In this document: one piece after another, positions 2,153 through 29,452 of the stretch
Position numbering within the stretch: the first letter of the stretch is position 1
How the letters are laid out: the number at the start of each line of letters is the position of its first letter
Assembly: GCA_029262235.1 (NCBI GenBank)
Contig: JAJCZU010000003.1
Location: forward strand, 248,001 to 312,000
Reading direction: 5' to 3'
Length of the DNA stretch: 64,000 bases
From: Candidatus Eiseniibacteriota bacterium
GTDB lineage: Bacteria > Orphanbacterota > Orphanbacteria > Orphanbacterales > Orphanbacteraceae
The notes under the pieces: generated by a model
The model's database searches: none
What the model was told of the DNA's origin: nothing
Seen by the model: the letters and a program-made list of their open reading frames with translations, nothing else
Program-made: the position numbers and the translations under genes

Positions 2153-2181
2153 GCGCGCCAGCTCTCTCCTGCGCGACGGCC

Positions 2182-2448
2182 TTAAGGCAGTTTTGACACG
2201 ATGTACTCGAGCGCTTTCTTGTCGAGCGTGAGATCCGCGACGATCGTCTTGAGCCGCCGGTTCTCGTCCTCGAGCTGCTTCAGACGCTTCGCCTCCCCGA
2301 CTTCCATCCCGCGAAACTTCTTCCGCCAGGCGTAAAACGTCGCATGGCTGATCCCGTGTTGCCGGCAGAGCTCCTTCGTCGGGTGACCGGCTTCAGACTG
2401 CTTGAGAATCGAAATGATCTGCTCTTCGGTGAATCGACCCTTCCGCAT
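2182..2448 (-). CDS. IS3-family transposase OrfA (HTH/leucine zipper)
   Basis: This 88-residue protein begins MRKGRFTEEQIISILKQ, the HTH_8/transposase_8 start typical of IS3 OrfA. A helix-turn-helix (ELCRQHGISHATFYAWRKKF) and a leucine-zipper-like segment (LKQLEDENRRLKTIVADLTL) follow. OrfA binds the terminal repeats and, by -1 frameshifting near its end, supplies the DNA-binding part of OrfAB. An AGGAGG-type ribosome site lies just upstream of the ATG. Confidence 0.92.
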   Translation of the reverse strand: MRKGRFTEEQIISILKQSEAGHPTKELCRQHGISHATFYAWRKKFRGMEVGEAKRLKQLEDENRRLKTIVADLTLDKKALEYIVSKLP

Positions 2449-2480
2449 GTGCTTCCTCCTGGATCTTTAGAGTACCGAAA

Positions 2481-2519
2481 GTCCAGGAACTTGTGGGCCA
2501 GTTTTTGGGGGGAAGATCA
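2481..2519. repeat. IS3 element right inverted repeat
   Basis: The reverse complement reads TGATCTTCCCCCC and ends TTCCTGGAC, matching the left repeat at 1317-1354 apart from the interior. It lies upstream of orfA, where the element's own promoter is expected. The 4 bp just outside (TCCC) match the bases just outside the left end. Confidence 0.85.
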
Positions 2520-2643
2520 TCCCCATGGACTGTTGAGTTAAGAGTGGTTCCTACCGCTCGAGCCTCTTTCGAATGCTGACGATTATCGACCCAGCGTTTT
2601 GGATTGTATAGATTGGTTCTGCCGGACCGATTGGGGCCGTATC

Positions 2644-3960
2644 CTACTTCTTCCCTTCCGCCACCCACGCATCAATATCATCCGTATTGACCGGCTGATG
2701 CCCCTTCGCGTCTGAGCCCGCCGCCCCCGCCGCACCACCACCGTTCGCCCCCGCGCCATTCCCCCTCCCCGCCACCATCGGCAGCGCATGCTCACCCCCG
2801 TGCCCGTTCCCACCACCCGCGCCATTCCCATTGCCGTTCTTCTTCCTGAACAAATGGTTCGCCTGGCGTCTCACCTTCAGCTTCATCCACTCGTACGCCA
2901 TCTTGGGCAGCATCTCGGGCGTGAACAGCACACTGTTCGTCAGGTAGTTCTCGAAGGTGCAGAAGCACTTGGTGTCGCGGATCATCTTGCGGACTTCTTC
3001 GGTGCGGTCGCTGAACCAGATCTCGCGGAAGTCGTAGTCCACGTCGCGCAGATTCCCGAGTGACTCTTCGAGGATCTCGCAGGGGTAGACGTCGCCGCCG
3101 GCGTAGATGATGCCGGCCATGTTGGCGGCGTAGCACGGCAGCTGGTACTGGCCGGTGCGCACGGTCTCGGAGATGACGTCCTGGCGCACGTTCTTCATCG
3201 CGTTGATGACGTCGGCGCCGGGGTAGTTCGTGTATCCCATGTCGGAGTTGTTCTCGGTGTCGTGCCGCAGCTCGGCGACCCACTCGAGGTACTTCTCGCG
3301 GTCGACGTCGAGCGCGTGCGCGGCGCGGGCGCCCTTGCGCGCAATGAGATTGTTGACGTTCTTGACGCCGTGCTGATCGCGCAGCGTGCGGTACGTCTTC
3401 ATGACGTTCTCTTGATTGAAGCCGCTCATGGTGGTCGCGATATTGGCGTTGAAGCTCGGGTATTCCTTCTCGAGCTTCTGCAGCTCCTGGAACGTCCAGA
3501 TGCACTTCTCGAAGAGGCCCGGGATCGCGCGCAGGCGGTCGTGGTCCTTGCCAATGGCGTCAATCGAAACGTCGATCGCGAAGTCGACGCCCGGGTTCTG
3601 GTCGAGCATCGTGCGCACCTGGTCGATCACCTTGGTCGTCAGCGACCCGTTCGTCGGGATGCCGACGTTACGGACGTTGTTGTTCTTGCAGAAGATGTGC
3701 ACGATCTCGGAAATGTCGTCGCGCAGGAACGGCTCGCCCCCGGTCGGCAGCAGGAACAGCAGGTCGCCCATGCTCTTCGAGATCTTCTCGTACTCGTCGA
3801 CCGTCAGTTCGTTCGACGACGGATTCACCCAGCCGAGCAGGCAGTGCCCGCAGTGCGCGTTACAAACATCGGTAATAAACAGAATGAGGTAGTGCGGATC
3901 GACTTTCGTCTTGTGAAAGATCCGCGTCGCGTATTTGGCGTATCCCATGAAGGTGCTCAA
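2644..3960 (-). CDS. Radical SAM/SPASM-like protein with Gly/Asn-rich tail
   Basis: This protein of about 438 residues belongs to the radical SAM superfamily. CNAHCGHC at residues 33-40 gives the CX3CX2C cluster ligands, and GGEPFLR is the SAM-binding motif. Later cysteines (CYAANMAG, VYPCEILEE, CFCTFE) resemble a SPASM-type auxiliary Fe-S site. I chose TTG at 3960 because AGAGGA lies about 10 nt before it; ATG 3948 is the alternative. The gene starts 13 bp after the B12-type radical SAM gene, so the two form an operon. The last ~60 residues are a low-complexity Gly/Asn/Ala tail. The substrate is unknown; SPASM proteins usually modify peptides or proteins. The IS element sits about 125 bp beyond the stop. 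Confidence 0.85.
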   Translation of the reverse strand: MSTFMGYAKYATRIFHKTKVDPHYLILFITDVCNAHCGHCLLGWVNPSSNELTVDEYEKISKSMGDLLFLLPTGGEPFLRDDISEIVHIFCKNNNVRNVGIPTNGSLTTKVIDQVRTMLDQNPGVDFAIDVSIDAIGKDHDRLRAIPGLFEKCIWTFQELQKLEKEYPSFNANIATTMSGFNQENVMKTYRTLRDQHGVKNVNNLIARKGARAAHALDVDREKYLEWVAELRHDTENNSDMGYTNYPGADVINAMKNVRQDVISETVRTGQYQLPCYAANMAGIIYAGGDVYPCEILEESLGNLRDVDYDFREIWFSDRTEEVRKMIRDTKCFCTFENYLTNSVLFTPEMLPKMAYEWMKLKVRRQANHLFRKKNGNGNGAGGGNGHGGEHALPMVAGRGNGAGANGGGAAGAAGSDAKGHQPVNTDDIDAWVAEGKK

Positions 3961-3973
3961 AGCGTGGTGTCCT

Positions 3974-5536
3974 CTACTTCTCGGGAGCGGCGTTGGGTGC
4001 GGGGGCGCCGGTTTCCTGCGCGGCGCATCCGCCGCCACCCGAGCCGCCGGCTGATTCGGCCTCCGGTCCCGCGCCGTTCTTGCCCTCGCCGACCTTCTTA
4101 CGCTTCTTCGCGTTGCCGCCCATGTAGTCGGCAAACGCTTTCACGCCGTGGAACTTGCGCTTGATGTCGCCGATCGAGCGAATGTTCGTCGCCATGCTCA
4201 GCATCTGCTTCGGCCGCAGGTAGAACTCCTTGAGGCCGGTGTCGATCAGTTCGTCGATGCGGTCCTTCGAAAGCTGCGGGTAGTCGAGCACCGTGACTTG
4301 CTCGTGATTGTCGTCGAGGTACTCGCCCCAGTCCTTCGGAATGAGGTGGCCTTCTTTCTTCGCCCAGTCGTAGATCTCGGTGCCGGGGTACGCCGCGACG
4401 CCCGAGATCTGAATCGTGTCGAGCGGGAGGGACTTTGCGAAGTCGATGGTCTGGCGCGCGGTCTGCTCGGTCTCGCCGGGCGCGCCGATCATAAAACACC
4501 CGTGCACGGTGAAGCCGAGCTCGCTGGCGTTCTTCGCGAATTCGCCGGCGCGGCGCAGGTTCATGCCCTTCTTGACGCCGTCGAGCGCCATCTGGCTCCC
4601 GAACTCGAAGCCGACCATGAGCATTCTGCAGCCGGCGCGTTTCATGAGTTGTAATAGGTCGCGCTTCACGTCGCTCCGCGCGTTCACACTCCAGCGCAGT
4701 TTCGTGTCGAGCCCGCGCTTCAGGATCTCGCGACAGACGCCTTCGACGTGCTCGCGATTGGCCGTGAACGTGTCGGTTTCGATCATGACCTCGCGCAGAG
4801 CCGGGAAGAGCGCGAGGTCGTATTCCATTTCGTCGACGACGAGCTTCGGGTCGCGAAAGCGGTTCTCGTGCCCGTACATGAGCTGCGGATCGCGACAGTA
4901 CGTGCAGCGCGCGAAGCAGCCGCGCCCTGACAATAGCGTCATGAACGGGTGCAGCTTGCCGCCGTCGTAGTACCAGTCGGCGTCGATGAAGTCCCACGCA
5001 GGGAAGGGGAGCTCGTTCACGTCGATGAACGGCCGTCCGCCGGTGCGCACGGGCTGCCCGAGTTCGTCGATATAGAAGAGGCCGGGCGTCGTCTTCGGAT
5101 CGCCGCCCAGAAACAGGTCGCGGATCGTGTAGTCGTATTCGCCGAGCGCGATGTAGTCGAGCGCGCCGAACGCCCGCGCGAACGTGTCGTCGGGCACGGC
5201 GGTCACGTGCTGGCCGACGAGAATCGTCTTCGCGTCGCACACCTCTTTGGCGAGCGCGCAGTACGCGATGTCGTTGTCGATCGCGGGTGTGCTCGCGTGC
5301 ATCACCACCCACGCGGGGCGCTCGCGCTCGAGCAGCGCGCGCACGTCTTCCTTCGACCAGTTCTGCGCCGCGGCGTCGACGAAGCGCACGTCGATCCCGG
5401 CTTCGCGCTGCACGGCCGTCGCGACGCAGATGTAATCGGGGTGCCGCTGCACGCGCCCGCGCGATCGCGCGTCCCAGCGCGCGCTGCGAACGAAGTCGTC
5501 GACGTAGGGCGGATTCAGTATGAGAACGTGGGCCAT
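3974..5536 (-). CDS. B12-binding-domain radical SAM protein
   Basis: This 520-residue protein begins HVLILNPPYVDDF, the start of a cobalamin-binding Rossmann domain (about 1-140, with GQHVTAVPD and ALGEYDYTI). CFARCTYC at 207-214 supplies the CX3CX2C radical SAM cluster, and the TIM-barrel region reaches ~440. The architecture matches class B methyltransferase or ring-cyclase type enzymes (HpnJ/BchE-like group), but the exact reaction cannot be read. The final ~50 residues are Gly/Ser/Ala-rich with a GGSGGGG stretch, echoing the tail of the next gene. It is the first gene of a two-gene operon behind a near-perfect sigma-70 promoter (5699-5727). Confidence 0.88.
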   Translation of the reverse strand: MAHVLILNPPYVDDFVRSARWDARSRGRVQRHPDYICVATAVQREAGIDVRFVDAAAQNWSKEDVRALLERERPAWVVMHASTPAIDNDIAYCALAKEVCDAKTILVGQHVTAVPDDTFARAFGALDYIALGEYDYTIRDLFLGGDPKTTPGLFYIDELGQPVRTGGRPFIDVNELPFPAWDFIDADWYYDGGKLHPFMTLLSGRGCFARCTYCRDPQLMYGHENRFRDPKLVVDEMEYDLALFPALREVMIETDTFTANREHVEGVCREILKRGLDTKLRWSVNARSDVKRDLLQLMKRAGCRMLMVGFEFGSQMALDGVKKGMNLRRAGEFAKNASELGFTVHGCFMIGAPGETEQTARQTIDFAKSLPLDTIQISGVAAYPGTEIYDWAKKEGHLIPKDWGEYLDDNHEQVTVLDYPQLSKDRIDELIDTGLKEFYLRPKQMLSMATNIRSIGDIKRKFHGVKAFADYMGGNAKKRKKVGEGKNGAGPEAESAGGSGGGGCAAQETGAPAPNAAPEK

Positions 5537-5579
5537 GGTGCGCGACTACCTCGGGTGCCTGGTGCTGACGATGCCGTTT

Positions 5580-5610
5580 AAAAAGCCGCGGGACGATTTC
5601 CGCCCAGCGG
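5580..5610 (-). terminator. Leader terminator-like hairpin (possible attenuator)
   Basis: Reading the minus strand, CCGC(T)GGG pairs with CCCGCGG across a 10-nt loop and is followed by C then TTTTT. It lies in the 5' leader, between the promoter at 5699-5727 and the first radical SAM start at 5536. This position suggests attenuation, but no leader peptide or ligand-binding fold is recognised. Confidence 0.45.
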
Positions 5611-5698
5611 TCCGGATCAGGGTGAAATGCGGGCGCGGCGCGTCAAGACTCCGATTGAGCCCTTTCGGGCGCGTATTTCCGCAGGTTTCGACTTCGCT

Positions 5699-7071: not shown

Positions 7072-7488
7072 ATGATTCATGCCCGGACCATATCCGAAAG
7101 AGGGTCGATCAACCCAATCCTGCCTCGGAGGATCGCTCTGCTGAACGCGTACGAACAGAACGGCACGGCCCCGATTTCGGTGCAGACGCCCGCCCGGCGG
7201 CGAAGCCCCGACCGTCGCTGGATCCCCGCTCTTTTCTACGGCGCGCTCTGTATCCTGAACCTGCTGTTTCTGGTGGTGTTCGGTGGAACGTCGTTCCGGT
7301 CTGATCTCGCGAATCTGTACTCCCGAATCACTCCGCCGTCGGAGGCCGCTGCAAGCTCTGCCCCCCTCCCTGAAGTGGAACCATTACAGTTCCCGCCCGG
7401 GGAGAATTACAGCGGCCAGTCGGCGGAGGATTATCGCCAGCAACAGGTGGCGACGAGTCGAAAAGGAGATCGTGTAGACGTGGAATGA
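7072..7488 (+). CDS. Small single-pass membrane protein, unknown function
   Basis: This 138-residue frame has one clear transmembrane segment (ALFYGALCILNLLFLVVFGG, about residues 53-73). It is preceded by an Arg-rich stretch and followed by a Ser/Pro/Glu-rich tail, so the C-terminus is probably outside. I do not recognise a family. No good ribosome site precedes ATG 7072. GGAGG at ~7128 would fit an in-frame CTG near 7138, so the real N-terminus may be shorter. It lies 78 bp after the ArsR gene on the same strand and may be its target. It converges on thyX. Confidence 0.5.
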   Translation: MIHARTISERGSINPILPRRIALLNAYEQNGTAPISVQTPARRRSPDRRWIPALFYGALCILNLLFLVVFGGTSFRSDLANLYSRITPPSEAAASSAPLPEVEPLQFPPGENYSGQSAEDYRQQQVATSRKGDRVDVE

Positions 7489-7588
7489 GTCAGCGGCCCG
7501 TCTCTCCCGACGGGTTGCCCGCGCCCGCGCGAACGCTTCGAAAATGGATTGCGCTCCCGTTTGCGAAGCCGAGTGAAGAGCGGTCGCC

Positions 7589-8284
7589 CTATGAAGGGGT
7601 GGCCGCTTCTTCCTTTTCACCCAGGTAGATTTCGCGGTATGCCGCGGCCGTCCACGGCATCTTCTCGAAGAACATGTCGCGGATCGCTTCGGCGTAGACG
7701 CGGATTTCGTACTGCGCGTGCACGTCGCAGCGCAGCTTCAGGAAGTTCATGAGCGCGCGCGCATTCACGGTCCAGTAGAACTCGGTGTACATATTCTGCG
7801 GCAGCAGAATGCGCGCGACCTCTTTCGCCGTGCCCTGCTCGAGCAGCTCCTTGTACGCGTCGACCGAGCGCCGGCACTCGGCCTCGACGCGCGTCCGGAA
7901 CGCCGCGTGCTCTTCGTCGCTGATCGCCGCGACCTCGCTGCCCTGCTTGTTCACCTTCTCTTTGACGCGCTTGTGGTCGGGCACGTAGAACTCGCCCTCG
8001 TCGAACACGGTGTAACGCCCCGAGATCTCGTTGAAGCTCGACCATCTGTGCCGGAACCACTGCCGCGCCACGAAGATCGGGCACTTCACGTGAAACTGAA
8101 ACACGGTGTGTTCGAACGGCGTCTCGTGCCCGTGCGCCATCAGATAGCGAATGAGCTTCCGGTCCTTCTCTTCGCCCTTCGACCCGCTCCCGAACGACAC
8201 GCGCGCCGATTTCACAACCGTGACGTCGTCGCCGAGCGCATCCACGAGCTTCACGAATCCCTTATCGAGCAAGGCCGTATCCAT
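7589..8284 (-). CDS. thyX: Flavin-dependent thymidylate synthase
   Basis: ThyX makes dTMP from dUMP using methylene-tetrahydrofolate and FAD/NADPH. The signature [13 protein letters not shown] is at residues 78-90 (RHRxxSxNxxSxR), and the FEH region and a C-terminal [20 protein letters not shown] block are also typical. At 231 residues the length is normal for the family. It starts at ATG 8284 after AAAGGA, 9 bp downstream of the PLP-enzyme gene on the same strand, so the two are likely co-transcribed. A GC-rich hairpin (7579-7608) overlaps its stop, although no long T-run follows. Confidence 0.97.
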
Positions 8285-18050: not shown

Positions 18051-19399
18051 TGCCTGCCCCCGTTGTCGTTGTCGGCGCCGGAATCGCCGGCCTCTCTTTC
18101 GCGCTCGGCCTTCGTACGAAGCGGGACGTGGTCGTGCTCGAGGCGGGCGACCGCGCGGGCGGCCTGATCCGCACCGACCGCGAAGAGGGCTACCAGTGCG
18201 AATGGGCCGCCAACGGATTCCTGTTCGACGGGGATTTCACGAAGGGGCCGGGGCTCGTGCTGAAAGAGCTCGGGCTCGAAAACGAGATCGTGACGAGCGC
18301 GGATGCCGCGCGTAAACGCTATCTGATTCATCGCGGTGCGCTGACACCGCTTCCCACCGGCCCGCTTGCGTTCTTTCGCTCGCCGCTGCTCTCCGCCGGG
18401 GCGAAACTGCGCACGTTTCGTGAACCGTGGGTCAAAACGCCGCCTCCCGCAGACGGCAACGAGTCGGTGCACGCGTTTCTCGCGCGCCGTTTCGGGGTGG
18501 GCATTGCCGACGCGTTCGCCGACTCGATCGTGTCGGGCGTGTTCGCGGGCGACGCGAAGGCGCTTACGATGCGCGGAGCATTCCCGCGCGCGACCGACGC
18601 CGAAGCCGCGGCCGGAAGCGTGATCAAGGGGATGAAGAGCGGCGGGAAGCCGGGCAAGCTGACGTCGTTCCGCGGCGGCATGCAGACGCTCATCGACCGC
18701 ATGGCGGGCGACCTGGGCAACTCGCTGCGACTGCATGCCGAAGTGAGCGCGATCGAGCCGCACGAAAACGGTGTGACGGTTCGTGTGAACGGGGACGCGA
18801 TCGAGGCCTCGGACGTCGTGCTCGCGACGCCGCCCGGCCGGACGGCGTCGCTGATCGCGCCGATCAACCAGGACTCTGCGCGCGATCTCCGGAGCATTCG
18901 TTCTGCGCGCGTGGCAGTTCTCGTGACGGGGTTTCGCAGGGAACAGGTGCGGACGCCCGTCGACGGTTTCGGATTTCTCGTGCCGCGCCGCGAAAAGATG
19001 CGCATTCTCGGTTCGCTCTGGACGTCGAGCATTTTCCCCGGCACCGCCCCCGAGGGACGCGTGCTGTTCCGGACGATGATCGGAGGGATGCACGACCCGA
19101 AGGCGCTCACGCTGCCCGGGCGCGCGCTGCTGCCGATCGCGCTCCGCGAGCTGCATGACGTGATGGGGATCGACGGCGACCCCGAGTTCATGAGGGTCTA
19201 CAAGCACGACCCGGGGATTCCGCAGTACGAAGCGGGACACGAAGAGATCGTGAAGCGCGTGGCATCGCGCCTCGGTCCGCGCGTTTCGATGATCGGGAAC
19301 GGGTGTGACGGTGTGTCGGTGGCGAAACTGCTTCTGCTCTACGAACGCGGGCTCGCGTTTCAGACTCAGGCGGGGACGCGCGCCGGGGTTGCGGGCTGA
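18050..19399 (+). CDS. hemY: Protoporphyrinogen oxidase (FAD-dependent)
   Basis: This 449-residue flavoprotein opens with PVVVVGAGIAGLSFALGLR, the dinucleotide-binding GxGxxG, then VLEAGDRAGGLIRT. The rest follows the amine-oxidase/HemY layout, including the SVIKGMKSGGKPGKLTSFRGG block typical of protoporphyrinogen oxidases. It catalyses the step after HemN, giving protoporphyrin IX. The ATG at 18050 overlaps the hemN stop by one base. The 3' end overlaps the convergent selenophosphate synthetase gene by 34 bp. Confidence 0.93.
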   Translation: MPAPVVVVGAGIAGLSFALGLRTKRDVVVLEAGDRAGGLIRTDREEGYQCEWAANGFLFDGDFTKGPGLVLKELGLENEIVTSADAARKRYLIHRGALTPLPTGPLAFFRSPLLSAGAKLRTFREPWVKTPPPADGNESVHAFLARRFGVGIADAFADSIVSGVFAGDAKALTMRGAFPRATDAEAAAGSVIKGMKSGGKPGKLTSFRGGMQTLIDRMAGDLGNSLRLHAEVSAIEPHENGVTVRVNGDAIEASDVVLATPPGRTASLIAPINQDSARDLRSIRSARVAVLVTGFRREQVRTPVDGFGFLVPRREKMRILGSLWTSSIFPGTAPEGRVLFRTMIGGMHDPKALTLPGRALLPIALRELHDVMGIDGDPEFMRVYKHDPGIPQYEAGHEEIVKRVASRLGPRVSMIGNGCDGVSVAKLLLLYERGLAFQTQAGTRAGVAG

Positions 19400-21687
19400 G
19401 CTCGTGCCGCGCCCTTCTGCGATTCGACTTCGATCACGCCTTTCCGCTTCGTAACATTCCCGACTACGCACGCCGACTCGTAACCCGCCGCCTTCAGCTG
19501 TTCCACCACGCGCGCGGCGTCGCTTTCACTGACCGCAGCGAGAAGACCGCCCGCCGTCTGCGGGTCGAAGAGCAGCGTGCCGAGCGGCTCCGTGCCGCCG
19601 ACCACGCTCCAGCGCGCCAGTACGCGTTCCCGATTCGCGGGATCGATCGTGCTTTTCGTGCCGCGCAGCGACGCCATGCGCGCGCCTTCGAGCACGGGAA
19701 TTGCCGATCCGATGAGCCGTGCCCCGACGCCGTCGTTTGCATCCGTACCGCGGCCTGCGTCAGTACTCCGGCTCGCCTCGAGCATCTCGGCCAGATGGCC
19801 GAGCAGGCCGAACCCGGTGACGTCCGTAAGGGCGTGTGCGGTTCCGCCTGCCAGTACGCCCGCTGCGGCTTCGTTCGACTGCAGCATCGACGCGAGCGCC
19901 CCTTCGATCGTGCGCCCCGGCGCTTCCGAGCGCATGTCGGCCGCCCAGAGCACGCCGGTGCCGATCGATTTCGTGAGGATCAGGGCGTCGCCCGGTCGGG
20001 CCCCCCCCTTGGTCGCGACGCGCGCCTCTTCGATCAGGCCCGTCATCGAAACGCCCACGGTGATCTCACTTCCCTCGGTCGTATGGCCGCCGACCAGCGT
20101 GGCGCCCATGCGGTTCAGCTCCTCCACGATCCCGGTCATCACGAGCCGGAAGTCTTCCTGCATGAGCGCATTGCTCGCGAACGGAATCGTGACGTTCGCG
20201 AGTGCCGTGTCGGGCGTCGCGCCCATCGCGAAGAGATCGGACGCCGCGTGCAGTGTCGCGATGCGCCCCATGAGATACGGGTCGTCGACGAACGCGCGAA
20301 ACGAGTCGACGGTCTGGACCGTCGCGAAGCCCTCGGGAATGCGCACCACGGCCGCGTCATCCGGCGTGTCGAGCCCGCGCAGCACGCGCGGATTCTCGTG
20401 AAGCGTGAGGGTGCGCAGGGTGTCGGCGAGCAGGAGGCCGCTCACTTTCGAACCGCATCCCGCGCAGCGCATACCGTCGGTTCTATCAGAGTCCCTGTCA
20501 GAATCCTCGTCGGCTGGCGTTTCTCCCGCGCGCATCATGACGGGAGACGGCCCGAGCGTGGCCGGGTCGAACTTGCGCATCCACCGGCGATCGATCCAGT
20601 CCTTTAATTTCCAGACCCAGCGGCCCCGGGGCGCAAACCCCTTGTAGCTTCCGATGGCCGACCCGTCGCCCGTCATGAGCAGCGCCAGGAAGCCGGACTG
20701 CGGTTCATACGCGCGAAGCGGGCTGTCTGTCACCATGGCCGCGAGGTTTTCCGCGAGCACGGGGCCCTGGCGCACGGCATAGACGCCCGCTTTCGGGACG
20801 GCGGGATGTTCGTCGATGTGAATCATGTCGCCGGCGGCGAAGATGGCCTCGTCGTCGATCGACTGCAGCGTTTTCTTCACACGAATGAAGCCGTGGGGAT
20901 CCTGCGCGAGACCGAACGCGTTCTGCGCGGGCTGCGCGCCGCCCCCGGTCGCCCAGAGGAGCAGATCATACGGAACCGCGTCGCCGTCCTCACAGGCGAT
21001 GGCGCCCGGCTTGACGCGCTCGATCACGGCCCCGAGCCGGAGCGTGATGCCGTGCGAGGCGAGCGCGCGTTCGATCGCCCGACGAACGGCCGTCGGCTGA
21101 TCGGGGAGCACCTGCTCGCCGCGGTCGATCAGAGTGACCGCCGTGTCGGCGATTCTTCGCCCGAAGCGCGCGCGCATCGCGAACGCGAGTTCCACGCCGG
21201 CCGCGCCGGCGCCCACCACAACGATCCGGATCGCGTTCTGATTCGCGAAGTTCTTTTCGAAGGTTTCCACTTTGTCGAGGAGAAGCCCGATCGGGCGGGT
21301 CAGGATCGCGTTTTCGCGAACGCCGGGAATGTCCGTGCCTCGCGTGACCGAACCGATGTCGAGCGACAGGAGATCGTAGCGAAGCGGCGGGCGGCCTTCG
21401 ATCTGCACATGGCGCCGGCTGCGGTCGAGCCCCGTCACGCGGCCCTGCACGAACCGCACGCCCGCCCAGCGCGTGAGCTGCACGAGATCCACTTCGGTCT
21501 CGCCGGCCTTGTAGAGTCCCGCCAGAGCGCCCGGGAGCATGCCGGAATAGAACGCCGTGGGCCCGTCCGAAACGAGCGTGATCCGGAGCGTGCGCGGCCC
21601 TTTCATGGCCAGCGCCTTCAGAACCTGCACATGCGCGTGGCCGCCGCCGACCAGCACGAGTTCCCTGTTTTTCTTCACGGTACGCAT
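19366..21687 (-). CDS. selD: FAD/NAD oxidoreductase fused to selenophosphate synthetase
   Basis: This 773-residue protein has two enzymes in one chain. Residues 1-~375 form an NDH-2-like pyridine nucleotide-disulfide oxidoreductase (LVLVGGGHAHV, IVVVGAGAAGVELAFAMRAR, AIFAAGDM). Residues ~400-750 are SelD, which makes selenophosphate from selenide and ATP. The catalytic pair is C411 and K414 in AGCGSK, so Cys replaces Sec. I chose ATG 21687 (MRTVKKNREL); longer in-frame starts would run into the upstream terminator. Such fusions are known in several bacteria, where the flavoprotein may supply reduced selenium. The tail end overlaps hemY. Confidence 0.92.
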   Translation of the reverse strand: MRTVKKNRELVLVGGGHAHVQVLKALAMKGPRTLRITLVSDGPTAFYSGMLPGALAGLYKAGETEVDLVQLTRWAGVRFVQGRVTGLDRSRRHVQIEGRPPLRYDLLSLDIGSVTRGTDIPGVRENAILTRPIGLLLDKVETFEKNFANQNAIRIVVVGAGAAGVELAFAMRARFGRRIADTAVTLIDRGEQVLPDQPTAVRRAIERALASHGITLRLGAVIERVKPGAIACEDGDAVPYDLLLWATGGGAQPAQNAFGLAQDPHGFIRVKKTLQSIDDEAIFAAGDMIHIDEHPAVPKAGVYAVRQGPVLAENLAAMVTDSPLRAYEPQSGFLALLMTGDGSAIGSYKGFAPRGRWVWKLKDWIDRRWMRKFDPATLGPSPVMMRAGETPADEDSDRDSDRTDGMRCAGCGSKVSGLLLADTLRTLTLHENPRVLRGLDTPDDAAVVRIPEGFATVQTVDSFRAFVDDPYLMGRIATLHAASDLFAMGATPDTALANVTIPFASNALMQEDFRLVMTGIVEELNRMGATLVGGHTTEGSEITVGVSMTGLIEEARVATKGGARPGDALILTKSIGTGVLWAADMRSEAPGRTIEGALASMLQSNEAAAGVLAGGTAHALTDVTGFGLLGHLAEMLEASRSTDAGRGTDANDGVGARLIGSAIPVLEGARMASLRGTKSTIDPANRERVLARWSVVGGTEPLGTLLFDPQTAGGLLAAVSESDAARVVEQLKAAGYESACVVGNVTKRKGVIEVESQKGAARAQPATPARVPA

Positions 21688-21703
21688 TTCACTCGAGTCT
21701 AAC

Positions 21704-21734
21704 AAAAAAAGGGGTGTGCCCGAAGACACACCCC
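21704..21734 (-). terminator. Intrinsic terminator after the cohesin-like gene
   Basis: On the minus strand, GGGGTGTG (21734-21727) pairs with CACACCCC (21718-21711) around an 8-nt loop and is followed by seven Ts. It ends the M36/cohesin operon. It lies only 17 bp before the selD-fusion ATG, so that gene needs read-through or a promoter inside this element. Confidence 0.85.
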
Positions 21735-21758
21735 CAGCGATCCGAACGGGATCGTGAT

Positions 21759-22535
21759 TCAGCGAATCAGCGTCATGCGCCGCGAAATGCGGGCGCCGTC
21801 GCCTTCGAAGCGATAGAAATAGACGCCGGAAGAGACCGCGTCGCCGCTTTCGTCGACGCCGCGCCATTCGGCCGTGTGCGTCCCGGCTTCCCGCGTTTCG
21901 TTGACCAGGCGCTTCACATGGCGACCGGACACATCGTAGATGTCGATGCGGACCGGGGCCGCGTTCGCGAGTTGATAGCGAATCGTGGTCGTCGGATTGA
22001 ACGGATTCGGCACATTCGCGAGAAGCGCCGTACGACTCGGAATCGTTTTCAGCGTGACCGGATTCTCCGCGCTTACCTGCGTATCCGGCTGCCAGTTTTC
22101 GTCCCCCGTCTGGAACGAAACGAGCGCCACGTCGGTGCGCGCCGGATCCAGAACCCGGAACGTCACGGTGCCGACCTCGGCGCGGTCCACAGCACGGGGA
22201 CCCGCGCTCGTGGCGGTCGTGATGTCGACGAGCTTCTTGTCGGTCCGTACGAACGGCCCGAGCACGAGCGGGTCGGCGAACAGGTCGCCGGCTTCGAAGC
22301 CGACGAACTCGAGCGCGTCCGTGTCGTACGCGAGATCGAAATGAACGGCCTGCACGGCGGCAAGATCCGCTGCCCCGATCTGCACCGTCATCGTGGCGCC
22401 GCGCTCGAACTTGAGCGCCGCCTCATCGGGGGCGCCGGCCGTAACGAACGGGCGTGCCGCGCTGTTGGAGCCCGCGAACGCGGTCCCGGCAAGGACCGTC
22501 ATGCAGGCGAGTATGGTGATCTTCGTATATTTCAT
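21759..22535 (-). CDS. Secreted cohesin-like domain protein with FlgD-type C-terminal sorting domain
   Basis: This 258-residue protein has a signal peptide (1-~22). Residues ~40-150 look like a cohesin domain (VQAVHFDLAYDTDALEFVGFEAGDLF, then VGTVTFRVLDP). The C-terminal ~85 residues are a FlgD-like Ig module (NVPNPFNPTTTIRYQLANAA, GRHVKRLVNE, GVYFYRFEG) used for surface attachment or secretion in FCB-type bacteria. The start is ATG 22535, with GGAGG overlapping the stop of the upstream peptidase gene 9 bp away, so the two are translationally coupled. Cohesins bind dockerins, and the upstream protein ends in a dockerin-like pair of loops. A matched anchor/client pair is the natural reading (inference). 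Confidence 0.82.
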   Translation of the reverse strand: MKYTKITILACMTVLAGTAFAGSNSAARPFVTAGAPDEAALKFERGATMTVQIGAADLAAVQAVHFDLAYDTDALEFVGFEAGDLFADPLVLGPFVRTDKKLVDITTATSAGPRAVDRAEVGTVTFRVLDPARTDVALVSFQTGDENWQPDTQVSAENPVTLKTIPSRTALLANVPNPFNPTTTIRYQLANAAPVRIDIYDVSGRHVKRLVNETREAGTHTAEWRGVDESGDAVSSGVYFYRFEGDGARISRRMTLIR

Positions 22536-22544
22536 GATGTCCTC

Positions 22545-25500
22545 CTACGGGCACTTCGCGTTGTTGAACAGGAGCGGCAGATACTTCAGCGTGTCGAAGA
22601 AGTTCACATCGTTCGCGGGGTCGCGATCGAAGTTTCCGCACGTTCCGGTACCGACGTTCAGTTCCGGCAGGTAGAGAAACGTATCCATGAAGTTCGTCTC
22701 GTTGTCGCCGTTCAGGTCGTTCGACGTCATGAACGAATTCGTTCCGGCCGCAAGCGCCGTAGACTCCACGGTGGCCGTGATCGCGAGGTTACCACATCCG
22801 GCGATGTTCGCGATCTGAATGACCGTTTCTCCGTTCAAGTCCGTGGCCGCGGTCGAAGCGAACGACGCCGTGTTCGTGCCCGACGCGCAGAAACGAATGG
22901 CGCCGCCGTTGCTCGACGCGCCCACGATGTCCACCGTGACGTCGCCCGCCGCGATGCCCTGCATCGGGTTGTTCGCGCCGTCGCGCACGGTCACCGTGAT
23001 CGTGAGAGTCGAATCGCCGTTCCCGTCCGGGCTGATGAACAGTCCCGTGTTGGCGCTCACAGAAGAATTCGACGCGCTTACGACAGCACCGGCCGCCGAA
23101 CAGATCGAGAAGTCGTCGAGCGCGGCTTCGACGAGCGAACCGTCGCCTTCGTCGCTTGCGATGTACCGGAACTGCACGGTGCTCGTCAGCGAGATGTAGT
23201 CGTTCAGCCGGAACGTATGTTCGGTCCAGCTGTTCGCACTTGCGGTGGTGTTCTCGAGATCGACCCAGCCGCCCCCGTCGTTGACGGAAACCTGCCAGAT
23301 GTCGTTTCCGGGCGAGCCGCCGAGATTGTTCGTGTACCAGCGCCAGTATGTGACGATCGCGATCGTGCTGCCGGACAGATCGAACACCGGCGAATAGAGC
23401 GATGTCTTGCCGCCGTCGATGTCGAACGATCCGGCGCTCGTGCCTGCCGCAAGCTGCGTTGCCCAGCAGTCGGTCCCCGCTGCGGTGTGATCGTCTTCCG
23501 TCTGACACTGGCCGCCGTTCGTCGTCCCCTGCGGGTCGCCGCGTTCCCATGCGCCCGTTGTGGCGTCGTCGGTCGCTTCGTTATCGACTGTCCACCCCTG
23601 GTCGGTTTCGAAGTCGTCCGTAATCGAACAGACGAACGTGCCGACGAGGAAGCTGTGGAAGTTTGTCGGCGCCAGCGTCGGATCCGTCGTGTTCGCGGCG
23701 TTGTTGTCTTCCGCATAGATGTAGTAGTCGACCATCGAGCCGACGGCCTGCGCCGGGATCTGGCCCGTGTAGCTGTCGCCGCCGTTCGCTGTAACGCCCA
23801 CGCTCGTGAACGCTCCGCCGTCGACACGGTAGAACACTTCTGTCGCGCCGACGTTGATCGCCACGTCACTCGTGATCGTCGCCGTGATGTCGATCGGAAG
23901 CGTCGCGTTCAGGTGTTCCGAAACCGGCGTATGCACGATCGAAACGGGCGTCACGATGGCCGGGCACGAGAATCCGTGATTCGAAGCGCCGACGCACCAT
24001 GCGGCGTAGTTCGGAACGCCGTTCGTGAGGTCGCCGTCGTTATCGACGGCCATGAAGGTCCAGAGAACCTGGTCTTCTTCGGTCTGCGGAAGCCCGAGGC
24101 GCCGCGCGAAGTGCCAGCCGAGCGCCGCGATACTGTCGGCTTCGGCTTGCGGCAGCGTGCTCTGGAGCTCCTGCCAGGAATCCCAGATGAACCCGGCGAT
24201 GATCTGGCCGCCCGTGTGCGTGTTCGACCAGTCGCCCGGATACTGCAGCGTGTTATCGGCATTGCGAATGCCAGAAACGCAGTTCCCGGTGAAGAAGCCG
24301 AGTCCGATGATGCTTTCGCGCGTCAGCAGAATCGCGGCACAGTCGCCGTTCCCTTCGTGAAGTGAAGAACGCGGCTGCGACGCGCTCGGATAGATCTGGT
24401 CCGTGATGCCGTGGCCGTATTCGTGATAGCCGACGTCCGCGAGCTGACCCGTGTTGCCGTAGGTCGCGCTTTCTTCGCAGAAGTTGATGCTGCGATCGCC
24501 GAACGAGTACCACGCGTTCCCGGGGCAGAAGCCGTCGGTGCGTTCGACTACGCACGGCGCCTGATAGTCCATCTCCGTGAACGTGGGGTCGACGTTCAGC
24601 AGCCAGTCGTGCTGACGGTTGATGTGATGGAACATGTCGCGTTCCGATGCGAGCGAGTTCGCGTCGTCCCAGTCGATCGTGAGGGGCGTGCCGGGCGTGA
24701 TCGTGCCCGCCTGCGAGCCGTTCGCGCCGGCGCCCGTAAAGCGATCGATCGCGATCCAGGGCCCGTCGAAGGTCGTCGTGAACGAGCGGTCGTCCGTGCC
24801 GCCGTACGTAAGCGAAAAGTCGCCGTTCGCGTCACTCGTTGCCGTACCGACGCCCGTAACGGCGACGTCCTGATGCGGCATGACCGAAGCGGGCGTATTC
24901 GGATCGCACCCGCCTACGTAAATGTGGGCGTCGCCCTGCGTATTGCCTGTGATATCGAGCGTCTGGATCATGTTGTAACGCCAGAGGATCTCGCCGTTCT
25001 GCGCGTCGACGTAGGTGACCCAGTTGCCGAGCGGGCTCATGACATCGAGGTCGAATCGCCACGCCAGCCTGTACTGAAGCGCGCGCTCTTCGCCCGTTTC
25101 TTCGCGAACGGGAAGGATCACGAGCTCTTCATAATAGAGGCGGTCTGTGGGCGCGCCGAAATTGATATCGTTCTGCGCGATCAGCAGTGCGGTGTTCCTG
25201 TCGACCGAGGGCGTGGTCGTGATGTCGACGTCCGGGAACAGGTCAGCCCCCGCCGCGAACACGCGTCCGCTCTCCATGAAGAGCGAGTAGGCGCGACCGC
25301 CGACGACGCGGATGTCGTTTTTCGTCTGGTCGTAGTGCACGGCGTACTTGCCGAGGCCGTTTCGCACGGTGCTCTCGCGCAGTTCGTTCGCCGCGACCGG
25401 GTAGATTTCGGGATGCGCGTTCACGAACTGGCGTGATGCCGCGCTCGCTTCGAACTCGCTCGAGAGCGGGCTTGCGAACTGCGCGCCCGATCCGTACACA

Positions 25501-25769
25501 TGGTGCAGCGTTCCGGTGAGCGCGTTCCGGCGGAAATGCCATTCGCCGCCATGCATGCTTTCCATCGCCGCCATCGGCGATGCTTTTGCCTGCGCCGGCA
25601 TCGCGTCGACCGGTTCGATCCACAGGTCTTCGTTCGCGATCCAGCCCGGGCGCGGGATCTCGTAGGGACTTCGGGGCGCATTCTCCGGTTCCGTGAACGC
25701 AAGCGCGCCCGTGGCGGAAGCGAGTAGAAGTACGCCCGGGATGCCGAGCCTCGATAACGAGAATTTCAT
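22545..25769 (-). CDS. Secreted M36 (fungalysin-type) metallopeptidase ending in dockerin-like repeats
   Basis: This protein of about 1074 residues starts at ATG 25769, right after AAGGAG, with a signal peptide to ~24. An FTP-type propeptide precedes the catalytic domain. HEYGH at 449-453 gives the zinc ligands and catalytic Glu, and HEGNGDCAA (E472) the third ligand, as in M36. A beta-rich jelly-roll (about 770-930, starting DDFETDQGW) and an Ig-like domain follow. The last ~60 residues carry two Ca-binding loops, DLNGDNETNFMD and DRDPANDVNFFD, as in type I dockerins. There is no FlgD-type sorting domain of its own; the next gene encodes a cohesin with one. Confidence 0.88.
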   Translation of the reverse strand: MKFSLSRLGIPGVLLLASATGALAFTEPENAPRSPYEIPRPGWIANEDLWIEPVDAMPAQAKASPMAAMESMHGGEWHFRRNALTGTLHHVYGSGAQFASPLSSEFEASAASRQFVNAHPEIYPVAANELRESTVRNGLGKYAVHYDQTKNDIRVVGGRAYSLFMESGRVFAAGADLFPDVDITTTPSVDRNTALLIAQNDINFGAPTDRLYYEELVILPVREETGEERALQYRLAWRFDLDVMSPLGNWVTYVDAQNGEILWRYNMIQTLDITGNTQGDAHIYVGGCDPNTPASVMPHQDVAVTGVGTATSDANGDFSLTYGGTDDRSFTTTFDGPWIAIDRFTGAGANGSQAGTITPGTPLTIDWDDANSLASERDMFHHINRQHDWLLNVDPTFTEMDYQAPCVVERTDGFCPGNAWYSFGDRSINFCEESATYGNTGQLADVGYHEYGHGITDQIYPSASQPRSSLHEGNGDCAAILLTRESIIGLGFFTGNCVSGIRNADNTLQYPGDWSNTHTGGQIIAGFIWDSWQELQSTLPQAEADSIAALGWHFARRLGLPQTEEDQVLWTFMAVDNDGDLTNGVPNYAAWCVGASNHGFSCPAIVTPVSIVHTPVSEHLNATLPIDITATITSDVAINVGATEVFYRVDGGAFTSVGVTANGGDSYTGQIPAQAVGSMVDYYIYAEDNNAANTTDPTLAPTNFHSFLVGTFVCSITDDFETDQGWTVDNEATDDATTGAWERGDPQGTTNGGQCQTEDDHTAAGTDCWATQLAAGTSAGSFDIDGGKTSLYSPVFDLSGSTIAIVTYWRWYTNNLGGSPGNDIWQVSVNDGGGWVDLENTTASANSWTEHTFRLNDYISLTSTVQFRYIASDEGDGSLVEAALDDFSICSAAGAVVSASNSSVSANTGLFISPDGNGDSTLTITVTVRDGANNPMQGIAAGDVTVDIVGASSNGGAIRFCASGTNTASFASTAATDLNGETVIQIANIAGCGNLAITATVESTALAAGTNSFMTSNDLNGDNETNFMDTFLYLPELNVGTGTCGNFDRDPANDVNFFDTLKYLPLLFNNAKCP

Positions 25770-25908
25770 CCCTGCTCCTTTCTCTGGGGTGCAGCCCGGC
25801 CGGCCGAACGGAGTTCGCCGCAACCGATCGGGACATAGTGATACTGATTGCACGGGAGAGTGCAGATTCCGTTTGCCCGGGGGATGGCAGAAAGGATATG
25901 CTTCAACC

Positions 25909-26412
25909 ATGTCAGAATACCACGAAACCTCAATGGGGTCAAAGACTTCGCCCGTTCGGAACGAAGCGCTGTACGAGGAGATCGGGCGGGAACTTTCGTC
26001 CCTTTTTGACGGAGAACACGACTGGATCGCGAACCTGGCCAATGCCGCCGCGGTCCTTTACGAGCGGCTGGGTTATTCCTGGGTCGGTTTCTATCGCGTG
26101 GAGTCCGGGGCGCTCGTTCTCGGGCCGTTCCAGGGGAGCACCGCCTGCGTGCGCATGGCGCGCGGAAAGGGCGTGTGCGGCACCGCATACGACACGGATA
26201 CCGTGCAGGTCGTGCCTGACGTGCACGCGTTCCCCGGCCACATTGCGTGTGACGCGCGGTCGAATTCGGAAGTCGTCGTGCCGCTTCACGCGGGGGGCGG
26301 GGTCTGGGGCGTTCTCGACGTCGACAGCCATCTCCCGAACGACTTCAGCCCCACCGATGTGGCAGGGCTGAAGTCACTCGCAAAGTTGATCGAAGGCGTG
26401 CTTCCCGGCTAG
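25909..26412 (+). CDS. msrC: Free methionine-(R)-sulfoxide reductase (GAF domain)
   Basis: This 167-residue GAF-fold enzyme reduces free Met-R-sulfoxide and protects against oxidation. LVLGPFQGSTACVRMARGKG, GVCGTA and FPGHIACDARSNSE are family signatures. Cysteines 80, 90 and 114 have exactly the spacing of the three catalytic cysteines of E. coli fRMsr (84/94/118). I chose ATG 25909 over the longer frame because AAAGGAT precedes it. It is divergent from the M36 peptidase gene and stands alone. Confidence 0.95.
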   Translation: MSEYHETSMGSKTSPVRNEALYEEIGRELSSLFDGEHDWIANLANAAAVLYERLGYSWVGFYRVESGALVLGPFQGSTACVRMARGKGVCGTAYDTDTVQVVPDVHAFPGHIACDARSNSEVVVPLHAGGGVWGVLDVDSHLPNDFSPTDVAGLKSLAKLIEGVLPG

Positions 26413-26462: not shown

Positions 26463-27905
26463 TCAGTCGAGCGTCACCTTACGAACCGGATAGCCGAAGT
26501 CTTCCAGCGGCACGTCGAATTTCGCCTCGTCACCCACCACCAGAATCTTCAGTCCGTCCGTTTTCAGGTCGCGCGCGATCGCTTCGTTCAGCGTCTTGCG
26601 ATCCGCGCTCTGATACACGGCGAACGGTGCTTCGTAGTGATTCTCCGGCAGGCCGTAGAAGTCGATGTCGACGAGACGCTGCACGATGTTCTGCGCGTTT
26701 TCGTATTCGAATACTTCGCTGTTCACGAGCGCGTTGCGCGCGACTTCGAGTTCCTCAGCACTCACGCCCGCCTCGTCCATCTTCTTCACTTCCTCGAGCA
26801 GAATCCCGAGCACTTCGCCCGTGCTCTCGCCCTTCGTGCCGGCGTAGGCGCCGAACAGGCCGTCGTAGAGATACGGCGTACTGAACCGGCTTCCGGTCGC
26901 GTAGGCGAGTCCCCGTTTGTGACGGATCTCGGTGATGAGTCGCGACGTGGAGAAGCTGCCGCCGAGCACGTGATTGGCAAGGCGCATGAGAGCCCAGTCG
27001 TCATCGGTCCGGCGCATCGAGAGATGGCCGATCGAAACGATGCTCTGGTCGGATTCCTTTTGAATGTGAACCATTTCCGGCGTGCTGTTCCCCGCGACTA
27101 CGGGCACCTCGGGGTATGTCACGGTCTTCGATTCCCAGTCACCGAACGCTTCGTCGACAAGCGCCCGCGCTCGCGCCGGCGTGATGGCGCCCGCGAAGGC
27201 GATCCACATCTCGTTCGGCGCGAAGTAGCGCTCGTGGAACGCCACGAGATCCTCGCGCGTAATGCGGTCGAGCGATGCTGTCGTCGGGAAACGCGCCGCG
27301 GGATGTCCTTCGCCGTACAGCAACTTGCGGAATTCGCGCTGCCCGATCTGCTGCACGCTGTCGTTCTGTCGGCGGATCTGCTCCCGGAGCTGCGCCATTT
27401 CGACGGCGTACCGTTCGGGGTCGAACGCGGGATGGCGGAGCGCGTCGGCAACGAGCTGCACGCCGTCTTCGAGCCGATCCACATGTACGTTGAGAAGCGC
27501 GCCGCCGCTTTCGGTTCCGACCCAGGTCGAGAACCGGGCCGCAATCGCGTCGGCCTTTTCATCCACATCCGTGAAGTGCATCGACTCCGTGCCGCCCGTT
27601 CGGAGCAGCGTGCCGGTGAGTTCCGCCAGTCCTGACTGGTCCGCCGGTTCGTAAAGCGAACCCGCTTTCACAATGACGACCATGTCGACGAGCGGAAGGC
27701 GATGATCTTCGAGTGTGAATACGCGTATGCCGTTCGGCAGCGTCTCGCGATGCGGCGTCTGCTTCGTGACCTCGATCGGCTCGAACGTGAGCTTCTGAAT
27801 CTTCTCTCTTGCCGTAAGCGCGCTTGCCGGCGTTACCGCGAGTGTCACCGCGATTGCGATGGCCAGTACGGCTGCTCCGGCTCTCCATGAGTTCTGCAAG
27901 GTCAT
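26463..27905 (-). CDS. M16-family peptidase, non-catalytic subunit
   Basis: This exported protein of about 480 residues has a signal peptide (MTLQNSWRAG..PASA) and the duplicated M16 fold (RETLPNGIRVFTLEDHRLPL, then LADHVLGGSFSTSR-like C-domain). The zinc motif HxxEH is missing: that position reads GLAELTGTLLRTGG. It is therefore the inactive partner in an M16B heterodimer, like the mitochondrial alpha subunit. Its ATG overlaps the stop of the active partner by one base (TAATG), so the two are made together. An upstream in-frame ATG at 28037 lies inside the partner gene and is not used. Confidence 0.92.
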   Translation of the reverse strand: MTLQNSWRAGAAVLAIAIAVTLAVTPASALTAREKIQKLTFEPIEVTKQTPHRETLPNGIRVFTLEDHRLPLVDMVVIVKAGSLYEPADQSGLAELTGTLLRTGGTESMHFTDVDEKADAIAARFSTWVGTESGGALLNVHVDRLEDGVQLVADALRHPAFDPERYAVEMAQLREQIRRQNDSVQQIGQREFRKLLYGEGHPAARFPTTASLDRITREDLVAFHERYFAPNEMWIAFAGAITPARARALVDEAFGDWESKTVTYPEVPVVAGNSTPEMVHIQKESDQSIVSIGHLSMRRTDDDWALMRLANHVLGGSFSTSRLITEIRHKRGLAYATGSRFSTPYLYDGLFGAYAGTKGESTGEVLGILLEEVKKMDEAGVSAEELEVARNALVNSEVFEYENAQNIVQRLVDIDFYGLPENHYEAPFAVYQSADRKTLNEAIARDLKTDGLKILVVGDEAKFDVPLEDFGYPVRKVTLD

Positions 27906-29452
27906 TATCGTGTGCCTCCCATGGCGCTCTCGAGCTCTTCTTTTTCGGGTTTCACCGTGTAGCCGACCGTGCGCGTCTTCTTCGTAAAGTAGGTTTTCGC
28001 GACGCGCTGTACGTCCTCGGCCGTGACTTCCCGGCATGCCAGAATCTCTTCGGGACGCCGCTTCCAGTTGCCGAGAACGGCCTCTTCGTAGGCGATGTTG
28101 ATCGCGCTCCGCATGTTGCTGCCGAAGCTGCGGACATACGCCGTTTCGATCTGTGTCTTCGCTTTCTCGAGTTCGGCGGCCGTTACGGGTTCGGTCTTCA
28201 GCCTGTCCATCTCGAACAGGATGGCGCGTTCCACGTCGGCCACCGTATGCGGTGACTGCACCGCGGCGCTCACGGTGAACAGATTCGGATAGCGCTCGCC
28301 CGGGTTATCGACGCTGGCGCTGATCGACGCGGCGATTCCCTTGTTCACGATGTTGCGTTCGAAGCGGCTCGACAGGCCGTTGTCCAGAATGTTGCGCGCC
28401 ACGGTCAGCGCGGCGTTGTCCGGATGACCCACCGTCGGTTTGTGCCACGCCATCAGGATGCGCGGTTCGGCGTCGTATTCCACTTCGAGCCGTTTCTCGC
28501 CGAGCTGCTCCGGCTCTTCCGTCTGCACCGGATGCGGCGGCGGCTGGCGTTTGTAATCGCCGAAGTACGCGTCGATCATCGCCACGGTTTTCTCCGGATC
28601 GACGTCGCCCGATATGGCAATGATCATCTGGTTCGGCGCGTAGTAGCGACGATAGTAGTCTTCGACTTCGCTCCGGTTGATCGTGCGGATCTCCGAGTCC
28701 CAGCCGATGATTTCGACGCCGTAGCGGTGCGCGTCGAAGGCCGCCGCGGTCAGGCGCTCGTACAGAAGCGCGCCGGGGCTGTCTTCGACCGACCGCCTGC
28801 GCTCTTCGCGCACGTTTTCGACTTCCGTGTAGAACTCGCGCAGAACCGGTTTCGTATAGCGGTCGGACTCGAGGATCGTCCAGAGCTCGAGGCGGTTCGC
28901 AGGCAGAGACACGATGTAAGCCGTCGCGTCGTAGCTCGTGAACGCGTTCAGCCCGCGCGCGCCGTTCTCGGTCAGGATCGTGCCGAACTCCCGCCCGTTC
29001 GCGAGTTCCTTGGCCGCCTCGCGGAGCTGCATCCATTCTTCCGTGAGCTTCGCGATCTTCTCTTCATCGCGGTGAAATCGCACGGACTGTTCGGCCTGAA
29101 TCTGCAGCCGCACTTCTTCGATCCGGGCCTGCAGAAAGCGTTCTTCTTCCCAGTCGATCGTACCGATCGATTCCGTCCCCTTGAACAGCATGTGCTCGAG
29201 GATGTGGGAGACGCCGCTGACGCCGTCCCATTCGTCGACCGATCCTACTTTGAACGCGGTACAGAAGCCGATCGTCGGCGCGGTGTGGTTCTCCATGATG
29301 AGAACCGTAAGGCCGTTCTTCAATACTTCGCGCGAAACGGTGATTTCGGCGCCGCCGATTGCGACGACTTCTTTCTGAAGCGCTTCGGCGCTCCACGGGA
29401 TCGCCAGCAGAATCAGGGCGATCCACGACATGGCATGCGAGGTAAGGCGCAA
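27905..29452 (-). CDS. M16-family zinc metallopeptidase, catalytic subunit
   Basis: This 515-residue exported protein has a signal peptide (to about 24) and the active inverted zinc motif HILEH (H83, E86, H87). A downstream Glu in ENVREERR is the likely third ligand. Between them lies an unusually long charged coiled-coil insert (about residues 98-155). The second half has the inactive-domain repeat (RILMAWHKPTVGHPDNAALT). It probably degrades periplasmic or outer-membrane peptides with the protein encoded next. It starts the two-gene operon. Confidence 0.93.
   Translation of the reverse strand: MRLTSHAMSWIALILLAIPWSAEALQKEVVAIGGAEITVSREVLKNGLTVLIMENHTAPTIGFCTAFKVGSVDEWDGVSGVSHILEHMLFKGTESIGTIDWEEERFLQARIEEVRLQIQAEQSVRFHRDEEKIAKLTEEWMQLREAAKELANGREFGTILTENGARGLNAFTSYDATAYIVSLPANRLELWTILESDRYTKPVLREFYTEVENVREERRRSVEDSPGALLYERLTAAAFDAHRYGVEIIGWDSEIRTINRSEVEDYYRRYYAPNQMIIAISGDVDPEKTVAMIDAYFGDYKRQPPPHPVQTEEPEQLGEKRLEVEYDAEPRILMAWHKPTVGHPDNAALTVARNILDNGLSSRFERNIVNKGIAASISASVDNPGERYPNLFTVSAAVQSPHTVADVERAILFEMDRLKTEPVTAAELEKAKTQIETAYVRSFGSNMRSAINIAYEEAVLGNWKRRPEEILACREVTAEDVQRVAKTYFTKKTRTVGYTVKPEKEELESAMGGTR

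Follow-up and report, generated by a model that had tools for sequence, protein, structure and literature searches.

A dockerin-like-tailed M4/M36-type metallopeptidase and its adjoining cohesin-FlgD adaptor as a putative two-subunit surface protease with a plug found genome-wide

Two adjoining minus-strand genes in the window (the whole 64,000-nucleotide stretch of DNA analysed, G000:C3:248001-312000, from the 4.47 Mb source genome G000) encode a metallopeptidase with a dockerin-like tail and a small adaptor in which a cohesin domain is joined to a FlgD-type sorting domain. The peptidase reading frame runs from an ATG at 25769 to a TAG stop at 22545-22547, and the adaptor starts 9 bp past that stop. 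The features of the two genes are as follows.

22545..25769, minus strand: gene for a dockerin-tailed M4/M36-type metallopeptidase, 1074 aa (ORF and translation; homologues in 7 genomes)
25698..25769, minus strand: peptidase Sec signal peptide, about residues 1-24 (sequence, by eye)
24411..24425, minus strand: zinc-binding HEYGH, residues 449-453, with the third ligand E472 at 24354-24356 (20-relative alignment)
22725..23084, minus strand: Ig-like domain preceding the tail, residues 896-1015 (alignment and a beta-sandwich model of low-to-moderate confidence)
22548..22724, minus strand: dockerin-like tail, residues 1016-1074 (identity to a second copy; profile-profile match to dockerins)
22683..22718, minus strand: tail loop 1, DLNGDNETNFMD, residues 1018-1029 (sequence; conserved in 44 tails)
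22593..22628, minus strand: tail loop 2, DRDPANDVNFFD, residues 1048-1059 (sequence; conserved in 44 tails)
22541..22545, minus strand: Shine-Dalgarno GGAGG, overlapping the peptidase stop (sequence)
21759..22535, minus strand: gene for the cohesin-FlgD adaptor, 258 aa (ORF and translation)
22473..22535, minus strand: adaptor signal peptide, about residues 1-21 (sequence, by eye)
22107..22403, minus strand: cohesin domain, residues 45-143 (Pfam 34.9 bits over 24.1; fold matches)
21774..22010, minus strand: FlgD-type / T9SS type A sorting domain, residues 176-254 (FlgD_ig 37.8 over 27; TIGR04183 35.6 over 23)

Neighboring genes were assigned by eye. Just downstream of the adaptor gene lies a pyridine nucleotide-disulfide oxidoreductase (NDH-2 like) fused to a selenide water dikinase (SelD, with Cys; 19366-21867, minus strand). 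Upstream of the peptidase are two overlapping M16-type peptidase genes (26463-29452, minus strand), and on the plus strand, 25693-26412 encodes a protein with a GAF domain that is similar to free methionine-R-sulfoxide reductase.

The peptidase comprises its signal peptide, an FTP-like propeptide, a gluzincin catalytic domain (HEYGHG, then LHEGNGD), beta-sandwich domains, the Ig-like domain, which has two conserved cysteines, and the 59-residue tail. Across an alignment of 20 relatives, H449, E450, the glycine, H453 and E472 were invariant, and the tyrosine was nearly so. Neither Pfam M36 (PF02128) nor Pfam M4 matched the window protein. Among the 20 relatives, weak Pfam matches were obtained to M36 in 11 and to M4 in 7; the FTP propeptide, weak in the window copy, was detected in 15; and the T9SS-dependent M36 model NF038113 matched 19 alignment members weakly, far under its cut-off of 885 bits. 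Given an HExxH motif, a downstream glutamate and an FTP propeptide without a Pfam M36 match, we place the protein in the M4/M36 superfamily and not in M36 itself. It is a secreted thermolysin/fungalysin-type (M4/M36-type) gluzincin, and the label "M36" is approximate only. That prediction also held that the peptidase has no FlgD-type sorting domain of its own, and profile searches found neither a FlgD nor a Por_Secre tail on it.

The tail carries the two calcium-binding-type loops that had been described. Loop 1 fits D-x-N-x-D-x-x-x-N-x-x-D in full over its 12 residues, loop 2 (12 residues) has D, D, N and D at positions 1, 3, 9 and 12, and helices are predicted after both loops at low model confidence. 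Pfam Dockerin_1 (PF00404) gave no match to the window tail and weak matches to 19 of 44 distinct tails, those scored individually falling below the cut-off (best 19.7 vs 22.9 bits). When a profile of all tails was compared with the PDB, dockerins came top (best match 2y3n_B, E=0.0045), and profile-profile comparison with four solved dockerins gave a probability of 92.5% with both loops spanned. Because the Pfam scores are sub-threshold, yet the profile-profile comparison reaches solved dockerins, we regard the tail as dockerin-like by sequence and not as a PF00404 member. The homology searches proposed at the outset were thus positive for cohesin and, for dockerin, positive in part.

The assignment of the adaptor domain as a cohesin is solid. 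Besides the Pfam score, all 50 PDB matches listed by Foldseek for the cohesin model were cohesins (type II first, best E=1.1e-6), including the non-cellulosomal cohesins of A. fulgidus and C. perfringens, and the cohesin part of the model was mostly at pLDDT 60-87. Pfam detected a single cohesin and no CBM in the adaptor, which thus lacks the features of a cellulosome (a multi-cohesin scaffoldin and a cellulose-binding module), and Pfam cohesin matches were few across G000. The predicted secreted cohesin with a FlgD-type anchor, encoded 9 bp on and coupled by a GGAGG that overlaps the stop, was confirmed in each of these respects.

A restriction of the pair to the window was considered and rejected, as a second copy was found in G000 and further pairs in related genomes. 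The second pair lies on contig C4 (peptidase at L011:3822-7085, adaptor at 7100-7855) and is 42% identical to the window copy in the peptidase, 50% in the cohesin protein and 75% in the 59-residue tail. Tails and pairs were surveyed in a sample of seven genomes of the phylum. By its matches, the related genome G001 is identical with the MAG SS_bin_27 (JABDJQ), and the phylum is probably GTDB JABDJQ01, for which PMC11382960 lists seven genomes. An intact tail was present on nine M4/M36-type peptidases. For eight of them, a cohesin-FlgD gene began 9-20 bp downstream, and all eight of these adaptors had their own N-terminal signal sequence and Shine-Dalgarno. Downstream of the ninth tailed peptidase (G004:C84) lay a C25 peptidase bearing the same tail, after which the contig ended. 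Six paralogous peptidases ended in their own FlgD domain, with a cohesin gene absent from the flanks examined. The adjoining gene is accordingly kept, as the original prediction required, in eight of nine cases where the peptidase has the tail, and the relatives without it carry their own FlgD. The tail profile recovered 11 tails in G000 and 45 in the seven phylum genomes, all one family, vs none in the 91 other genomes of the same search. Together with 75% identity in the tail vs 42% in the peptidase, this distribution points to a similarity among tails beyond that expected by chance.

Tails were also found joined to a cohesin within a single chain. Two of the 45 tails sit on FlgD-bearing proteins, and both have a cohesin or cohesin-like stretch between tail and FlgD: L113:4536-6437 (G005) has the tail, a clear cohesin and FlgD, along with FG-GAP and ASPIC/UnbV domains, and L117:5120-8575 (G003) has the tail, a cohesin-like stretch (marginal score only) and FlgD. 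In four long surface proteins (L012, L141, L142 and L143), a single chain combines cohesin and FlgD with a preceding dockerin-like stretch of another kind, and a one-chain dockerin-like/cohesin/FlgD architecture is common in the phylum. In the window, the peptidase TAG (22545-22547) is in frame with the adaptor, and read-through would yield a natural fusion; this is unlikely to be the normal route, since the adaptor has its own signal peptide. An adaptor that is merely the second half of a read-through or frameshift product was rejected, given its own signal sequence and Shine-Dalgarno and the fact that only some pairs share a frame.

A wider search for peptidase relatives covered 386 genomes, and most relatives outside the phylum ended in FlgD. 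In G092, a genome of another phylum, the relative ends in a near-threshold dockerin (21.1 bits), and directly upstream lies a gene for a 189-aa predicted lipoprotein with a cohesin (26.4 bits vs a cut-off of 24.1). At this locus (L134, G092:C90:32000-39500), the features are as follows.

1597-2163: lipoprotein cohesin
2157-5696: dockerin-tailed M4/M36-type peptidase

Among the four genomes examined of that phylum, the peptidase was present only in G092. As anchor type and gene order differ from those in the window, the G092 pair suggests an independent assembly of the same logic. Relatives in G202 and G333 had a dockerin-like tail, and the cohesin gene was not adjacent.

The same tail occurs on other secreted proteins. 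C25 peptidases carry it (L095, L096, L101 and L112 by Pfam C25; L110 is a close orthologue of L112), as do many small secreted Ig proteins. An adjacent cohesin gene was absent for L095, L096 and L110/L112 and mostly absent for the C25 and Ig carriers overall. In nine small proteins of the source genome, the tail accompanies an Ig-like domain; six are arrayed as two tandem triplets, and none has an adjacent cohesin gene (C2:120416-122312, C2:175293-176994, C2:39295, C6:13302 and C11:12905; L030-L034). Each of the nine has 14-22 extra residues past the tail, and they are possibly structural clients of the same adaptors. With the same tail on C25 peptidases and small Ig proteins, the plug would be a genome-wide standard part and one adaptor would probably serve several clients.

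Trees of the catalytic, middle, cohesin and FlgD parts separated paralogues a and b across genomes, whereas the tail tree grouped sequences by genome or genus and not by paralogue. At the helix position after loop 1, all 10 distinct tails of one genus (g4) had Ala and all 34 others had Leu, Ile or Gln; the Ala signature spans M4/M36, C25 and small Ig hosts. The Ig domain plus tail was 98% identical between the paralogues of G004. Gene conversion could partly explain such clustering by genome, and less easily fits the change shared with the small Ig proteins of genus g4. These patterns are most simply explained if all tails of one genome recognize the same partner surface. We read the system as one shared plug with several sockets, the plug apparently not being private to the window pair.

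The tail-cohesin interaction was also approached by modeling and by distance correlation. The in-frame TAG was read as Gln, giving a single chain of tail, linker and cohesin, in which AlphaFold2 placed the tail at pLDDT below 50 (four-row alignment); modeled with the Ig domain alone, the tail was again of low confidence (three-row alignment). Mirror-tree distances of tail and cohesin were correlated (r=0.73, Mantel p=0.002), and after correction for the catalytic domain, the partial correlation of the tail was 0.67 with cohesin and 0.66 with FlgD, a correlation that is not interaction-specific because the tail tracks the FlgD domain equally well. Mean identity across pairs was 65% for the tail, 56% for the catalytic domain and 48% for the cohesin, and this highest value within the pair argues against the tail being a useless leftover.

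We propose, with a probability of roughly 70%, that the products of the two genes make up a surface protease of two subunits, a plug-bearing peptidase and a cohesin-T9SS adaptor, the plug being a genome-wide standard part. The first subunit, a metallopeptidase of M4/M36 type, would be exported via Sec; it lacks a sorting tail and closes with an Ig-like domain followed by the dockerin-like plug. The second would be a small adaptor whose single cohesin serves as the socket and whose FlgD-type tail directs T9SS sorting. Calcium would take part in the joining of plug and socket, probably while both are still in the periplasm, after which the adaptor tail would carry or fix the complex at the cell surface via T9SS, either through export of the peptidase with the adaptor or through its capture at the surface. 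SprA (TIGR04189) scored over its cut-off in all seven phylum genomes, which makes the adaptor a plausible T9SS cargo. The noncovalent joint would replace the covalent FlgD tail of the paralogous peptidases, and one adaptor would probably serve several clients. From domain content and gene distribution, we infer binding, calcium dependence, co-export, surface location and proteolytic activity of the pair. The two-part, non-cellulosomal surface protease of the original prediction is supported by the pairing in eight of nine cases, the FlgD swap among paralogues and the fusions, with binding as the inferred step; the plug, however, is shared with C25 peptidases and small Ig proteins. An extension of this proposal, in which sorting by the type IX system occurs in trans and a cargo with the common plug but no sorting tail reaches the surface or crosses the outer membrane only via the cohesin adaptor, is possible but doubtful. 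If true, T9SS cargo selection would be modular in the phylum, with one tail-bearing adaptor and many clients.

Exclusive one-to-one pairs, in which each tail binds only the cohesin of the adjoining gene, would account for the tight operon structure of all eight pairs and for the long retention of two distinct paralogous pairs. Such exclusivity is improbable, as tails cluster by genome and cohesins by paralogue, G000 holds 11 tails and only two adaptors of the window type, and the tail signature of one genus is common to unrelated host proteins. The frequent lack of a cohesin gene beside tailed small proteins and C25 peptidases, along with the sub-threshold Pfam dockerin score, could instead indicate an autonomous calcium-binding tail for stability or sorting that binds no cohesin, the cohesin-FlgD gene being merely a co-regulated neighbor. 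Covalent FlgD tails and cohesin neighbors are, however, distributed in complementary fashion, fusions of tail, cohesin and FlgD exist, and G092 has an independent dockerin and lipoprotein-cohesin pair, all of which makes this reading equally improbable.

The pair might also be the fission product of a one-chain dockerin-cohesin-FlgD protein, with the cohesin-like domain as a spacer and halves that need not meet. One-chain versions are common in the phylum (including the four with a different dockerin-like stretch), and the window genes share a frame with one TAG between them; in every pair, nevertheless, the adaptor has a signal sequence and a Shine-Dalgarno of its own, and no other part of the pair is conserved as well as the tail, leaving fission very unlikely.

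A two-subunit protease with a shared plug, its modules familiar chiefly from machinery that degrades cellulose, would represent a minimal cohesin-dockerin system, in an uncultured phylum, that serves proteolysis and is remote both from cellulose and from multi-cohesin scaffolds. The occurrence of covalent and borrowed sorting tails among paralogues makes it testable whether a T9SS signal acts in trans on a folded partner, and the genome-specific tails would provide naturally occurring, orthogonal sets of plugs and sockets.

Several known systems resemble the one proposed here. In Candidatus Stygibacter (Cloacimonadota), dockerin-tailed C25 and S8 peptidases and a cohesin scaffold with a T9SS-type C-terminal domain, which attaches to the producing cell, have been proposed, and polypeptide degradation was inferred (PMC8542988). 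That system relies on a single scaffoldin of 3,755 aa, which carries tandem cohesins as well as CBMs, unlike the window pair, in which the adaptor is 258 aa long, has a single cohesin, lacks a CBM and forms an operon with an M4/M36-type peptidase bearing a divergent dockerin-like tail. The proposed planctosome of Nemodlikiaceae (Planctomycetes) is likewise a non-cellulosomal cohesin-dockerin assembly for peptidases (M12B, M14); the accessible part of that report describes a lamin-tail anchor and an adaptor scaffold, and does not describe an operon of two genes in which a single cohesin comes with a T9SS tail (PMC6461901). Dockerin peptidases or glycosidases are also joined through cohesins outside cellulose degradation in the Limousia mucinolysome (PMC12997984) and in Clostridium perfringens complexes, but these organisms are Gram-positive and use multi-cohesin scaffoldins, or cohesins on glycoside hydrolases, with sortase anchoring. 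The T9SS-dependent M36 family metallopeptidases (NF038113) are secreted members of the same superfamily with T9SS type A sorting, their sorting domain being covalently attached, unlike in the window peptidase. A partial literature search did not find an M4/M36-type peptidase whose partner, encoded by a second gene, is a T9SS adaptor with a single cohesin. Non-cellulosomal dockerin peptidases are already known, and the two-gene arrangement with a single-cohesin T9SS adaptor would be the new part.
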